Part shown: piece after piece, positions 753 through 32,523 of the stretch | How positions within the stretch are numbered: position 1 is the stretch's first letter | How the letters are laid out: the number at the start of each line of letters is the position of its first letter | Assembly: GCA_904420465.1 (NCBI GenBank) | Contig: CAJFVL010000017.1 | Span: 1 to 32,526 of the forward strand | From: an uncultured Clostridium sp. | Lineage (GTDB): Bacteria; Bacillota; Clostridia; Oscillospirales; Oscillospiraceae | Direction: 5' to 3' | DNA length: 32,526 nt | Program-made: the position numbers and the translations under genes | The notes under the pieces: model-generated | What the model saw: only the letters and a program-made list of their open reading frames with translations | Told to the model about the DNA's origin: nothing | Database searches by the model: none

Positions 753-958
753 GGTCTCACCTCCTTCCTTTCCGCCCGGTAGACCTCCAGGCCAGAGTCG
801 CCCGATTCGATGGAGAAAACAGCGGTTGCGGCATGCAACACCACGGCGGTGCACAGTCCTGGAATTCCCGTGGTCTCCACGGCGGTGATGAACATGGGGC
901 CCAGCGTGGAGGGGTCGATTTTGACCCACTCCAGCTTGGCAAAGTTTAGCTGCTTCAT
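749..958 (-). CDS. hypothetical protein (MKQLNFAKLEWVKIDPSTLGPMFITAVETTG...)
   Basis: 69-aa ORF; ATGA overlap with the stop of the DUF3987 gene at 955-958. Confidence 0.65.
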   Translation of the reverse strand: MKQLNFAKLEWVKIDPSTLGPMFITAVETTGIPGLCTAVVLHAATAVFSIESGDSGLEVYRAERKEVRP

Positions 959-2580
959 GCTGACAACCCCCTTTTTCGGCTTTTTCGGCTTTTTCGTAGC
1001 GGGTTAAGTGCATACATTTTCTTCGGACGCCCCCCTGTTTCCTCCAGCATCTCCTTCATGTACCCCATATCAATCAGAATTTGAAGTACCGGCTCCAGGT
1101 CGTCAGCTTTCTTAAATCGCCCTCTGCACAGATTGAATATCTCGCTTCGGCTGATCTGGTCTTTATCCGACCCGTCAATTCGCTTCCATGCGCACTTTGC
1201 ACCATCCATGTTTTCGTCAGCTCCCATAACCTGGTAGGCCGCCTGTGCGTGGACAAAGTAGAACTCTGCAATCTTGATTGCAGCTGTCATGGTCTCGGCG
1301 CTTATTGGTTCACTAGCCGGGAAACTGGACAGGTGAAGAAGGGCAGCTATGCGGATCATCGTTCCGGTGATTTTATTTCCCCAGTCCTGCATAGATTCCA
1401 GCTCATTCAGAAGCCGGGATTCAATACAGCTTTGATATTCTTCCCGGAGCCGGTCAGCCTCTTTTGAAAGATGTACATCTCCACTACCCTGATCTAGCAG
1501 AAGCCTAGTAACAAAATCGTAATAGGCTTTTTTCGTCTCCGGCGTCACTGGTTTTGGAGAAACCTTTCTGTGTCCAATTTTAGATTTACAGACGGAATAC
1601 AGAAACCGCCCACAAAGGCCACGGCCCCGGAAAACGTCATTGCTCATAAGTCCTTGAATCACATTGGGTTGAACAGTAAGGGCCATGGTGAGACGGGGGT
1701 TCTCAACGTGATTTGATTTTCGTCCAATGCGGTCAATGGAGATGAAGTCTCCGCTGAAAGCCTTCAAATAGACATCAAAGTTATATGTCTTGTCATATCT
1801 GCCGGCCATTGCGTCAAATACACCGCCCTCGCTGCTGACGATTGCAATACTCCCACCTTGTTCGTTCATGATATCAACCAACTTTTCAGGTGTGGTGTCG
1901 TCGACAATTAGTCTGGTTGGGTGAAGCTCTTTGAACTCTGCCAGTTGTGCGGATAACTCCAGCATTTCGGAACGGGCATCTTCCATCTGCTCTCGGTTCT
2001 TTGCATTTGCAGCCGTCTTTTTGACAGTCTCCAGGCGTTTTTCCAACAAATCTCGCTCTGCCCTATTCTGCATGATCTCCACTGCCTCAATATCTCTCTG
2101 TTTGGCTTCACACGCAAACACCGGCTTTGTGGTTGCCGAAGATACCGCGCTTTTTCTCTCCCCTGGGGCCGCTATGGCTAGCAGATAAAGGCAAAGCGGC
2201 TCAACCCAATCTGGATTTATAACGACCACGTATCTTTTTTGAAATGCGATAGCCATAACCCCTAGGACCATCGTTGCCGACATCTCCGGCGGGGTCTGCG
2301 TACTCTCTGCAAGCTCGTCCACAAACGCTGCCGCTGGAGCCGGAAGGCAATCAACCGGAAAAGGCGGGGTGTCGATCTCGTCAAACGGAATTGGCTCGTC
2401 CCATCCCTGCGAAAAAGACGAAAAAGACGAAAAAGACGAAAAAGTCAGGTGGTCGCCTCTGGCAATAATCCGCTTGGCGCTTTCGACGATCTGGTCTAAG
2501 GTGAGATCGTCGTGATCCATCAACCTCTTGATCTCGTCCAAAGGCATCCCGTTTTCCAGTAGAAAATTCAGTCCATCCAC
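955..2580 (-). CDS. DUF3987-type primase/helicase-like protein of mobile elements
   Basis: 541 aa, GTG start, RBS gaggtg upstream; recognisable DUF3987 features (LPAPAAAFVDELAESTQTPPEMSATMVLGVMAIAFQKRYVVVINPDWVEPLCLYLLAIAAPGERKSA, ATP-binding-like loop). Confidence 0.8.
   Translation of the reverse strand: MDGLNFLLENGMPLDEIKRLMDHDDLTLDQIVESAKRIIARGDHLTFSSFSSFSSFSQGWDEPIPFDEIDTPPFPVDCLPAPAAAFVDELAESTQTPPEMSATMVLGVMAIAFQKRYVVVINPDWVEPLCLYLLAIAAPGERKSAVSSATTKPVFACEAKQRDIEAVEIMQNRAERDLLEKRLETVKKTAANAKNREQMEDARSEMLELSAQLAEFKELHPTRLIVDDTTPEKLVDIMNEQGGSIAIVSSEGGVFDAMAGRYDKTYNFDVYLKAFSGDFISIDRIGRKSNHVENPRLTMALTVQPNVIQGLMSNDVFRGRGLCGRFLYSVCKSKIGHRKVSPKPVTPETKKAYYDFVTRLLLDQGSGDVHLSKEADRLREEYQSCIESRLLNELESMQDWGNKITGTMIRIAALLHLSSFPASEPISAETMTAAIKIAEFYFVHAQAAYQVMGADENMDGAKCAWKRIDGSDKDQISRSEIFNLCRGRFKKADDLEPVLQILIDMGYMKEMLEETGGRPKKMYALNPLRKSRKSRKRGLSA
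971..997 (-). repeat. 3 x 9-bp tandem repeat (ctttttcgg on +; ccgaaaaag on the coding strand), encodes RKSRKSRKR at the DUF3987 C-terminus
   Basis: Read directly: ctttttcgg ctttttcgg ctttttcgt. Confidence 0.95.
2410..2445 (-). repeat. 4 x 9-bp tandem repeat (cgaaaaaga on +; TTTTCGTCT on the coding strand), encodes FSSFSSFSSFS in the DUF3987 N-terminus
   Basis: Read directly: cgaaaaaga x3 followed by cgaaaaagt. Confidence 0.95.
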
Positions 2581-2639: not shown

Positions 2640-2722
2640 ACAAATTAATGGAAGTTGCCGCCTCGTGATTTCCAATATCTCCCGCTCTACCGTGTCACCG
2701 GTTGGGCGGGATTTTTCGTTTT
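2640..2722 (+). ncRNA. candidate small antisense RNA opposite the xis-DUF3987 intergenic leader
   Basis: Putative promoter at 2605-2633 followed ~50 nt later by a hairpin and T-tracts; no credible ORF between. Confidence 0.35.
2680..2716 (+). terminator. Rho-independent terminator-like hairpin
   Basis: tcccgc/gcggga plus accg/cggt stem (2680-2711) followed by TTTTTCGTTTTT. Confidence 0.6.
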
Positions 2723-2919
2723 TATGCATTTGCGTTTACTTCAGAAAAGCTATCTCGGTCTAACTGCTCCAAGAGTAATGGGACGTTTACTTTAAATCTG
2801 TTTCCACTTCGGAGTCCTGGTAAACGGCCTTGTTTCTCTAACAATCGGAGTTGATACTCGGATAGTAAGCCAGTAGCCGCCACTTGCCGAATTGTCAAGA
2901 ATTTGTTTCTATAATCCAT
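2722..2919 (-). CDS. excisionase/MerR-like helix-turn-helix DNA-binding protein
   Basis: 65 aa (MDYRNKFLTIRQVAATGLLSEYQLRLLEKQGRLPGLRSGNRFKVNVPLLLEQL), typical excisionase-type wHTH; divergent from XRE/integrase. Confidence 0.75.
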   Translation of the reverse strand: MDYRNKFLTIRQVAATGLLSEYQLRLLEKQGRLPGLRSGNRFKVNVPLLLEQLDRDSFSEVNANA

Positions 2920-3013: not shown

Positions 3014-3784
3014 GTGGTTTTTAACTTGAAAGGAATTAATAATACCTTATTTGTGCAAAAAATGATAGGTTCCCGTGTAAGGGAAGCTCGTGAAAATAAG
3101 GGACTATCTAGACCAGAATTTGCACGCCTCCTCGAACAAGACATTCATGCGCCGGTTGAAGGCAATACATATGGTTTATCTATCAATAGACTAAAACAGT
3201 GGGAGTATGGTAACAATCCAGTGAGTCTCGAGTGGATTCCTGCAATCTGCAATGTTTTAGAATGTGATGTTGGGTATCTATTTGGAGATTACGCAGAAAA
3301 AACACGGAGCATTTCAGACATTGTTGATAAAACAGGATTATCTCCATTAGCGGCAGAAAATTTATTAAAAATAAAGACAACTAGTAATGGAGAAGATTTT
3401 TGGGCAAAGATCATTGATTTTTTGTCGTTCCTTCTTGAACGGAGCAATGCAATTCTGATCCCAACTATAGTAGGTGCGTCGCAGTGCATTGACACAATGC
3501 TAGAGAGAACACACTATCAAAATGAGGTATTACCAAAACTGTCAGTTCCCCCAGATGATGAGCGCGCCTTTCTATTACATCATAAATTTAATGATTGCTA
3601 TGTTGATATAGTGTCAAAGAGAACAAAAGTTCGAGATAAGATAAAACAATTAAACGATATTTGTGATGCAAGGCTTTATCATTGTGAGAAAAATGCGAGC
3701 GCAGCAATCGAAAAATTCATTATGGAGGAAGTTGAACGTATATGGCTAACATCCAAGAACGCAGAAACAAAGAAGGAAAATTAA
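3014..3784 (+). CDS. XRE-family (Cro/CI-like) transcriptional regulator with long C-terminal domain
   Basis: HTH_3-like N-terminus (IGSRVREARENKGLSRPEFARLLEQD...LSINRLKQWEYGNNPVSLEWIPAICNVLECDVGYLFG). Start codon uncertain (GTG 3014, GTG 3053 or ATG 3062). Confidence 0.75.
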   Translation: MVFNLKGINNTLFVQKMIGSRVREARENKGLSRPEFARLLEQDIHAPVEGNTYGLSINRLKQWEYGNNPVSLEWIPAICNVLECDVGYLFGDYAEKTRSISDIVDKTGLSPLAAENLLKIKTTSNGEDFWAKIIDFLSFLLERSNAILIPTIVGASQCIDTMLERTHYQNEVLPKLSVPPDDERAFLLHHKFNDCYVDIVSKRTKVRDKIKQLNDICDARLYHCEKNASAAIEKFIMEEVERIWLTSKNAETKKEN

Positions 3785-5130
3785 TCTCTTTCTCTATCCG
3801 TGTCCACCGTGGCCGTGGTGCCGACGGCAAGCAGTTGAAACCCTGGACAGCCACGTTTGAGGTCTCCCCAACTTGGACGGAAAAGAGCGCACGAAAAAAG
3901 GCCGAGGCTTTCGCCGCGACCTTCGAGAAGGAGTGCAGAGAAGGGATTACAACTGACAGCCGCCAGAAGTTCGCCCCATACTGTGATTATGTGATTAGTC
4001 TAAAAGAGAAAACTGGAATCAAGCACTCCACCATTGTGAGATACAAGGAGCTAACCACCCGGATATACCCAGCTCTTGGGCACATGAAGTTGAAGGACAT
4101 CCGGCCCGACCATCTGAACAGTTTATATGCCCGGCTTGCCCAGCCTGGAGCCGGGAGCGCCCACGCAATCGCAAAGGTGGGCCTTGCCGCCCTGCTGAAA
4201 GAAAGGCGTCTCACCCGCCTGGAGCTGTCCAACGTGACCGGCCTCTCCCTGAAAGCTGTCTATGCAGCAGTCAAGGGGGAGCGGGTCAAAAAGGAGGTTG
4301 CAGGGGCTATTTCCACGGCCCTGGGTGGGAACCTGGAGGACTTCTTTTCCCTGAATACCGAAGAACGCACCTTATCGGGCAAGACGATCCGGGAGTATCA
4401 CCGGCTCATTCATACTGTGCTGGATCAAGCGTTGAAGGAGGGGCTTGTGGCCGTCAACGTGGCGGACAGGGCCACGCCGCCGAAGATGGAGCAGAAGGAC
4501 GTGAACTACTTCCAGCCGGAACAGGTGGCGGCCATCCGAGAGGCACTGGAACTGGAGCCGATCAAGTGGAGAACACTGGTTCACCTCCTGCTGATTACCG
4601 GGGCCCGCCGTGGGGAAATCCTGGGCCTGAAATGGGACAAGGTAGATTTTGCCAGCAATCAAGTGTACATCTGCAACAATGTCCTGTACTCCGCCGACGT
4701 GGGCATTTATGAGGACACCCCCAAGACAGAGCGGTCTAAGCGGTATGTCTCCCTACCGGCGGAGACCATGCAGCTGTTGAAGCAGTACAGAGCGTGGCAG
4801 AATGGGGAGCGCCTGCGCCTGGGAGAATACTACCAGGATCAAGGTTTTGTGTTTGCCCAGGACACCGGCGGCCCCATGCACCCTGACAGCGTGACCACAT
4901 GGCTCTCCCGGTTCAGCAAGCGCCACGGCCTCCCACACGTCAACGCCCACGCCTTCCGGCACACAATGGCTAGTATGCTCTACTTCAATGGTGTGGACAG
5001 TGTGTCCATTTCCAAGCGGTTGGGACACGCCCAGGTGTCCACCACAGCCAATATTTACGCCCACGTCATGGAGGCCGCAGACAAAAAGAACGCCGACATA
5101 CTAGCCGACGTTTTTCTGAAAAAGGCTTGA
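3742..5130 (+). CDS. tyrosine recombinase / site-specific integrase with embedded HTH-like insert
   Basis: Catalytic motifs GARRGE (R), HAFRHT (HxxR), LGHAQVSTT (H), NIYAHV (Tyr); overlaps the XRE gene by 43 nt. Confidence 0.93.
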   Translation: MANIQERRNKEGKLISFSIRVHRGRGADGKQLKPWTATFEVSPTWTEKSARKKAEAFAATFEKECREGITTDSRQKFAPYCDYVISLKEKTGIKHSTIVRYKELTTRIYPALGHMKLKDIRPDHLNSLYARLAQPGAGSAHAIAKVGLAALLKERRLTRLELSNVTGLSLKAVYAAVKGERVKKEVAGAISTALGGNLEDFFSLNTEERTLSGKTIREYHRLIHTVLDQALKEGLVAVNVADRATPPKMEQKDVNYFQPEQVAAIREALELEPIKWRTLVHLLLITGARRGEILGLKWDKVDFASNQVYICNNVLYSADVGIYEDTPKTERSKRYVSLPAETMQLLKQYRAWQNGERLRLGEYYQDQGFVFAQDTGGPMHPDSVTTWLSRFSKRHGLPHVNAHAFRHTMASMLYFNGVDSVSISKRLGHAQVSTTANIYAHVMEAADKKNADILADVFLKKA

Positions 5131-5240: not shown

Positions 5241-5316
5241 TGGTTGCGGGAGGAGGACTTGAACCTCCGACCTCCGGGTTATGAGCCCGACGAGCTGCCA
5301 ACTGCTCTACCCCGCG
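5241..5316 (-). tRNA. initiator tRNA-fMet (CAU)
   Basis: Minus-strand CGCGGGGTAGAGCAG...CGGGCTCATAACCCGG...TTCAAGTC...CCCGCAACCA; C1xA72 mismatch and GGG/CCC anticodon stem are initiator hallmarks; encoded CCA. Confidence 0.92.
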
Positions 5317-5321
5317 ATATT

Positions 5322-5408
5322 TGGTGCCGGAGACCGGGATCGAACCGGCACGGGATCGCTCCCACGGGATTTTAAGTCCCGGGCGTCTGCCAATTCCGCC
5401 ACTCCGGC
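5322..5408 (-). tRNA. tRNA-Leu (UAA)
   Basis: GCCGGAGTGGCGGAATTGGCAGACGC...GGGACTTAAAATCCCG...long variable arm...GGTTCGATCCCGGTCTCCGGCACCA. Confidence 0.95.
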
Positions 5409-31304: not shown

Positions 31305-32523
31305 TTACCGGCCCATGACCCGGGCCATCTGGGTCATGGTGACGGCCACCTCGGCCCGGGTAGCGGTGTCCTGGGGAGCGAATGTGCCATCCTCATTGCC
31401 GCTCATCAGGCCCAGTTCATAGCAGGTCTGAACCCCCTCGGCGGCGTAGTCCGCGATGGAGGCGGCGTCGGAAAAGGAGGCTTCGCCCTCGTTCACCGCC
31501 TCGCCGGAGTGGTCATAGGCGGCCAGGAAATTGCCGAACAGGGCGGCCATATCCTGCCGGGTGATGGAGGCGTCAGGGGAAAAGGAGGTCATCCCGGCGG
31601 GGATCAGTCCGGCGCGCTGGGCCCAGTCCACATAGCTCTGGTACCACGCCCCCTCAGAGGCGGGGAGCGGCTCGCCGGAGAACTGGCTGAGCACCACCAG
31701 GAACTGGGCGTAGGTCATGTTGTCCTCGGGGCCGAAGGTGCCGTCCTCGTTGCCGGAGAACAGGCCCTTCGGGTTCCGGTTCAGGCTCAGCGGAGCCGGA
31801 GCCTTCCGCGGTGACGAAGGAAAGATAGTAGCCGCCGCCCCACATATCATCCACTCTCAGCTGGAACACACCGGATGCAGGCAGGGTAAAGCCATAGCTG
31901 ACCATCTGTTCCCCGGTGGTCAGGTTCACAACGCCGGAGAAGTTATCCCACATGGGGTCCATGGCGAAGAAGGCCGTCCCGGCGGGATAGAGATAGGCCG
32001 TCTGACTCTGGCCCTGGCTGTCTGTGACAGTGATGCTGCCGGTAGACTCTTTGTCCGTCTTTAGCCGCCCATTTCCGGGAACGGCATAGGTGGGCGGCTC
32101 CGGCTCCGGTTCGGGTTCCGGTTCAGGTTCAGGTTCCGGCTTGGGCTGGGGTTCGGGGATGGGGGCGCCCTCCGCCATGACGTAGGCCGTGGTGGTCCAG
32201 ATGCCCTGGTCAAAGGCGTTCAGCTCGTAGGCCCCGGTCTCGGGCAGGGTAAAACTCTGATTGAGGTACTGGGATTCCCCGGTAGAAAGGTTGTCGGCAT
32301 ACTGGAAGTTGGTCATGCCTGACTTGGGGGTAAAGACCGTTCCGGCGGGGTAGAGGTACACGGTGTGGCTCTCCCCGTCCTGATCGGTGACGGTAGCGGT
32401 GCCGGAACTGGGGTTGCTGGCCTGCAGCAGGGAGTTGTCCGGCAGGTCATAGGCCAGGGTGGAGACGGTCAGCATCCCCAGCACCATGACCGCGGCCAGG
32501 ACGCGCGAGAGAAATTTCTTCAT
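31305..32523 (-). pseudogene. SLH-domain secreted protein, reading frame disrupted near 31763-31775
   Basis: N-terminal ORF (31654..32523: signal peptide, two ~95-aa repeats, EP linker) runs into nonsense after EPEPEPEG; the SLH half (GLFSGNEDGTFGPEDNMTYAQF...VMGR) continues in another frame (31305..31850). Confidence 0.7.

Follow-up and report, generated by a model that had tools for sequence, protein, structure and literature searches.

The two arrays of 9-bp repeats carried by the DUF3987 gene of the window (the whole stretch of 32,526 nucleotides that was analysed) are very probably iterons of the replication origin of the element, bound by the winged helix of the element's own DUF3987 initiator helicase, a reading drawn from comparative sequence analysis. 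In the mechanism proposed here, the in-phase 9-bp repeats are putative binding sites for the winged helix at the C-terminus of the DUF3987 protein, and the two arrays together would mark the origin of a small integrative element composed of an integrase, a repressor, an Xis-like ORF, and the initiator helicase. An oligomer of the initiator would occupy each array, and the inverted arrangement would place two helicases pointing in opposite directions, which would unwind the DNA for copying after excision. In the window and a few other lineages, the left array appears to have been relocated into the linker codons ahead of the helicase domain. A more specific proposal, that residues 479 and 483 constitute a two-residue recognition code and that the window lineage has a split origin with arrays 1.4 kb apart in linker codons flanking the helicase domain, is tentative, and we hold it to be somewhat more doubtful than probable. 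In such a split origin, the arrays would be joined by looping or would each load one helicase, with most of the gene lying between the start points.

The assignment of the window gene to the DUF3987 (YfjI-type) family is well above threshold, with a Pfam match to PF13148 of 322 bits against a cut-off of 27, and the protein matches phrog_2373 (“DNA helicase”) in PHROG at 1e-77 (Table 1). The first-pass annotation had described four 9-mers near the 5′ end of the gene and three near the 3′ end, encoding FSSFSSFSSFS and RKSRKSRKR and lying in opposite orientation about 1.4 kb apart, and this description is confirmed, with small corrections. Tandem Repeats Finder returns 3.9 copies with a 100% match and a 9-bp period for the left array (+ strand unit CGAAAAAGA) and 2.9 copies with a 100% match for the right array (+ strand unit CTTTTTCGG). 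The left array encodes its peptide from aa 47, in the linker immediately ahead of the helicase domain, and the right array from aa 529, in the disordered C-terminal tail. The duplex of about 26 nt that had been proposed between them corresponds to a 27-nt inverted repeat that is 93% complementary, with 1420 nt between the arms. The final unit is partial in both arrays. In addition, the ninth base differs systematically between the left and right arrays, so the proposed duplex has the same mismatch between every unit pair. The window contains 12 copies of the core CGAAAAAG, compared with 0.97 expected, and 7 of the 12 lie within the two arrays; the two-unit tandem pattern has no further occurrence in the genome. 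No AT-rich stretch is present between the window arrays (50% AT). A search for a second copy of the window element found none, and the nearest relative is 86% identical and carries other units.

Table 1. Features of the window element, with positions counted from the first letter of the window
Feature	Position	Strand	Remarks
Right iteron array	971..996	(-)	3 x CGAAAAAG(C) on coding strand; inverted with respect to left array; near gene 3′ end
DUF3987 (YfjI-type) MGE initiator helicase	955..2580	(-)	541 aa, GTG start; PF13148 E=5e-96
Codons of C-terminal winged-helix domain (aa 456-525), proposed iteron reader	1006..1215	(-)	AlphaFold model topology; co-variation with iterons
Asn483 codon	1132..1134	(-)	second most associated column, i+4 on the Ser479 helix
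Ser479 codon	1144..1146	(-)	column most strongly associated with iteron sequence
Left iteron array	2410..2444	(-)	4 x CTTTTTCG(T) on coding strand; near gene 5′ end
Small excisionase-like HTH ORF	2722..2919	(-)	by look only; no PHROG match
HTH repressor-like gene	3014..3784	(+)	PF13560, 5e-6
Tyrosine integrase	3742..5130	(+)	PF00589, 3e-27
tRNA-Met, tRNA-Leu	5241-5408		after tyrosine integrase

The AlphaFold model of the window protein has a mean pLDDT of 88.6, with block values of about 79-90 across aa 450-530. Within this region, aa 456-525 adopt the secondary structure order H-E-H-H-E-E. The arrays encode residues 53-57 and 535-541, where the model shows the least order (pLDDT < 50) and the protein probably accommodates whatever sequence the DNA requires. 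Residues 479 and 483 are located on helix 478-484 of the winged-helix fold. This helix precedes the usual recognition helix of winged-helix folds, an arrangement that counts against a reader role for it. The best Foldseek matches are to MCM, ComM, AAV Rep, papilloma E1, and the SaPI5 helicase, all of them weak (E >= 1e-3, TM about 0.1-0.37), and a sequence search of the PDB returned no relative.

DUF3987 loci were collected from genomes of the same family and the same order, from viral contigs, and from annotated phages and plasmids, giving 118 non-redundant loci; among the viral contigs, single-protein queries returned no loci and an alignment query returned 80. Across the 118 loci, 9-bp arrays concentrate at the 3′ end of the gene and ahead of the helicase domain. 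The arrays may be coding or non-coding, and the unit varies between elements. At a stringent threshold, 47 arrays of period 9 are present in 100 loci, compared with 0-6 for each of the other tested periods from 5 to 18, and 54 arrays of 9 bp were observed versus 0-2 in order-2 Markov shuffles. The two positions that carry arrays in the window also carry them, built of other units, in L014 (62% identical to the window gene in the domain), L001 (86% identical), L006, L128, L029, and L012, and the left/right units found among these relatives include TTTTGGCAC/GTGCCAAAA, CTTTTTTCC/GGGAAAAAA, CTTYTGGCC/GGCCAAAAG, CTTTTGCAC/GTGCAAAAG, and TTTTGGGGG/CCCCCAAAA. In other relatives, the right array lies over or just past the stop codon, and the inverted partner of this array is found 5-40 bp, 100-200 bp, or 1.2 kb downstream. 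A partner array about 350 bp upstream of the domain is present at some loci, and some relatives show no array. Most relatives have both arrays close behind the gene and on one side of the helicase domain, and in the largest group the arrays enclose an AT-rich gap. The layout with the left array in the linker falls into three groups of the tree (window/L001/L014, L006/L128, and L012/L029, the last of which unites two long branches and is possibly spurious), and relatives with a downstream pair are interspersed among the three groups.

Where a second array is present, it is almost always an inverted match of the first. The pair is inverted in 33 of the 35 loci with two similar arrays, and a more sensitive scan of 39 loci found an inverted partner in 31, only a direct partner in three, and none in five. 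Scored by the best three-unit window, array similarity is 7.1/9 within a locus's own pair versus 4.4/9 across loci (permutation P 5e-5). The 9-bp arrays and their opposite orientation recur beyond the window with different letters, and the earlier suggestion that selection acts on the DNA and not on the protein is borne out by relatives that keep the 9-bp architecture with other units, with other residues, and even past the stop codon. Judged from these comparisons, the conserved feature is a DNA architecture and not a peptide.

Several further observations were made in the same set of loci. Conserved peptide repeats were considered as the common feature and rejected, as the FSS/RKS tracts of the window give way to FGT/AKS, SGPF/DKRAKR, GGFGG/NPQNP, and others, or the array lies past the stop codon. 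At least three iteron arrays with mixed spacing are present in L022, L029, L047, and L123, and several of those in L047 are in a single orientation. One in-frame stop codon (TGA or TAG), which may reflect decay, a gene end, or recoding, lies in the frame aligned with the DUF3987 query in L008, L009, L010, L013, and others.

If the protein reads the arrays, the sequence of the unit should track the DNA-binding domain of that protein. Iteron similarity rises with identity over the C-terminal 56 residues (r 0.45; Mantel P 5e-4), with the caveat that kinship among the sequences inflates some P values; this affects the held-out test described below and the distant phyla less. The partial correlation is 0.33 for the winged helix given the helicase, compared with -0.04 for the helicase given the winged helix. 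Columns 479 and 483 (window numbering; Ser and Asn in the window) rank first and second of 440, and the pair ranks first of 310 i,i+4 pairs. Between the window and L001, the helicase is 90% identical and the winged helix 57% identical, and the units differ on both sides; both arrays changed along with their presumed reader. Similarly, L124 and L126 have helicase domains that are 80% identical, winged helices that are 33% identical, and different iterons, and their reader and sites look to have been exchanged together as a module.

The identities of residues 479 and 483 predict the unit. Arg479/Arg483 is associated with GACA(A): of 26 Arg/Arg loci, 23 have GACA, compared with 0 of 24 loci with other residues; the three Arg/Arg exceptions are L006, L014, and L128, which carry GCCA-type units. 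Among the remaining combinations, Ser/Arg is accompanied by GGAAA (in L001, GGGNAAAA), Ser/Gln by TGCAATAAA, Asn or Thr/Gln by TACARTA (two of three cases), Arg/Asn by TGCAAAA or AGCAAAA, and Arg/Gln by TCAAAA (two of five). The Ser/Asn combination of the window is accompanied by GACGAAAAA, in a class that has one member with known iterons. Among distant relatives, the actinobacterial units from Tsukamurella (GGGACAGAA) and from a Streptomyces plasmid (CTGACAGAA), both of the Arg/Arg class, obey the rule, as does a Bartonella plasmid of the Arg/Gln class with CTTCAAAAC. A held-out set consisted of 52 Arg/Arg loci in which no array had been detected and which were unused in finding the rule. 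In these 52 loci, GACAAA occurs 200 times downstream of the gene versus 47 +- 7 expected, at a density 11 times that in the helicase codons, and the motifs of the other residue classes are not raised. The rule is put forward for DUF3987 loci outside the gamma-proteobacterial phages of this broad family. It is co-variation and prediction that point to a cognate specificity between initiator and iterons.

An origin-like layout is visible in relatives of the window gene. At 47 loci, inverted sites of the form TTTGTC ... GACAAA just downstream of the gene bracket a gap averaging 100 bp. This gap is 70% AT versus 51% in the flanks and is the AT-richer part in 47 of 47 divergent-layout loci; it is motif-free by definition, which hardly accounts for the difference in AT content. 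The gap would be a typical unwinding element. An 18.4-kb circular Streptomyces plasmid carries eight TGACAGAA sites in both orientations (0.26 expected), located at and directly after the end of the DUF3987 gene, and contains a primase-polymerase and no other recognizable initiator. The argument from the Bartonella plasmid is weaker because that plasmid also carries RepC.

These layouts bear on whether the arrays are instead winged-helix sites that serve control, through autoregulation, handcuffing, or incompatibility, with the true origin elsewhere in the element and the distant array acting like the crr site of phage P4. A separation of 1.4 kb between arrays and the lack of an AT-rich gap, as in the window-type lineages, would suit such a function, as would the loci with at least three arrays at mixed spacing. 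In the 47 relatives, however, the same sites bracket an AT-rich gap beside the gene, and on the 18-kb plasmid they occupy the intergenic region that follows the gene; we consider a purely controlling function unlikely. With respect to the origin proposed here, the window element is interrupted at position 1, which is the start of the contig. Further arrays or an unwinding element could be missing because the contig end cuts the element at this point, and the absent left part may hold the strand-opening site.

The prevalence of inverse pairs would also be expected if the arrays paired in the mRNA and thereby circularized or regulated the transcript, and a duplex of about -32 kcal/mol could arise between the two arms of the window. 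Selection for base pairing would be expected to leave each unit variant matched by the unit opposite it, but in-register identity is 0.84 compared with 0.82 for any units, and the window units share one uncompensated mismatch. The two arrays of a pair can also be both upstream, both downstream, or far apart, and the units track two residues of a DNA-binding domain, a relationship that base pairing does not predict. The mRNA-circularizing duplex raised by the first-pass annotation is accordingly disfavoured by uncompensated mismatches, a partner array that moves, and units that co-vary with the winged helix, and we regard it as very improbable. Its suggestion of an inversion target, or more generally of recombination sites that swap or invert a helicase cassette, finds some encouragement in the arrays that flank the helicase domain in several lineages and in the 80% versus 33% identities of L124 and L126, as differing histories of helicase and winged helix imply that segments were exchanged. 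Inversion would nevertheless wreck the gene, both arrays are on one side of the helicase domain in most relatives, and arrays that vary between elements cannot act as shared homology; with the position of the partner array shifting and the unit co-varying with the winged helix, we assign almost no likelihood to this role. Neutral repeats produced by slippage in the linker codons, or phase-variable peptide tracts as had also been suggested, would fit the low-confidence linkers and the near-identity of units inside each array, but are scarcely credible given that arrays recur at the same places in genes of 33-86% identity with different letters and also in non-coding DNA, that the two arrays within a gene resemble one another, that the partner array moves, that other periods are scarcely found, and that the unit co-varies with the winged helix.

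DUF3987/YfjI proteins are predicted to be MGE helicases (PMC5862659), and the window protein is by sequence a direct member of this family; DUF3987 was the sole family that Pfam found in it, with no homology to lambda O. A literature search yielded no origin or recognition rule for DUF3987/YfjI and no report on DUF3987 with tandem repeats or on the repeats themselves. Closest to this arrangement are the SaPI Rep and SCCmec Cch2 helicases, whose C-terminal domains bind short repeats immediately downstream of the respective helicase genes (PMC7581432). Similar to SaPI Rep and SCCmec Cch/Cch2, the window protein is an MGE helicase with several in-phase direct repeats in or beside its gene, and its C-terminal domain is predicted here to bind them with cognate specificity. 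The differences are that the SaPI and SCCmec repeats are located just downstream of the helicase gene, whereas both window arrays are inside the coding sequence, and that the SaPI and SCCmec systems have DUF927 and D5/Primase_Cterm ATPases, with 5-nt iterons in Cch2, in place of the DUF3987 domain, strict 9-bp period, and inverted arrays seen here.

The alpha protein of phage P4 is a primase-helicase that recognizes one kind of short site grouped into two separate sets, ori and crr. Its ATPase and DNA-binding domain are unrelated to those of the window protein, and the P4 sites are non-coding and further apart. In phage lambda, the iterons lie between the domains of the initiator O as one cluster of four longer iterons, and the helicase is a separate host protein. 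As in lambda O, the putative iterons of the window are inside the initiator's own coding sequence, between domains. Unlike lambda, the window has two inverted 9-bp arrays that flank the helicase domain, and initiator and helicase are combined in one protein. The location of the lambda iterons inside a replication gene has been described (PMC11447400), and the same paper reports no such repeats for phage TLS, which has a helicase that is possibly a member of this broad DUF3987 family. The proposal made when the window was first read, that the arrays are iterons or mark an origin inside a primase gene, is well supported, although the window protein is the helicase/initiator part and does not have the primase part present in the sister L014.

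Helicases of the DUF3987/YfjI type occur widely in phages, integrative elements, and plasmids, and their role as replicative helicases is so far a prediction. If the present reading is correct, their origins could be found from sequence as inverted 9-bp repeats at the gene end, with a unit predictable from two residues. It would also provide a testable recognition code, forecast which elements compete for one initiator, and offer a clear case of regulatory DNA that has repeatedly moved into linker codons of its reader.

A sister element is present in the same genome on contig C41 (L145, 475-5959), with an Xis-like ORF, a repressor-like gene, and an integrase beside tRNA-Gln. The 785-aa protein of L145 carries a CHC2/TOPRIM-like primase part, assigned by eye, fused ahead of its DUF3987 domain. 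The window and L145 contigs terminate in the same conserved small ORFs, which probably reflects an assembly break in common sequence. A small ORF at 749-958 of the window overlaps the DUF3987 stop codon (ATGA) and is kept in L001 and L014 (MKxLxFAKLEWVKIxPSTLGPMF...); a PHROG search with it gave no match. Just upstream of the DUF3987 gene, at 2615-2665, inverted GAGGCGG and CCGCCTC motifs flank an AT-rich stretch that is possibly the promoter and operator of the gene. Near the other end of the window, a Pro-Glu repeat (PEPEPE) at 32095-32141 is an ordinary low-complexity linker of a predicted secreted protein.
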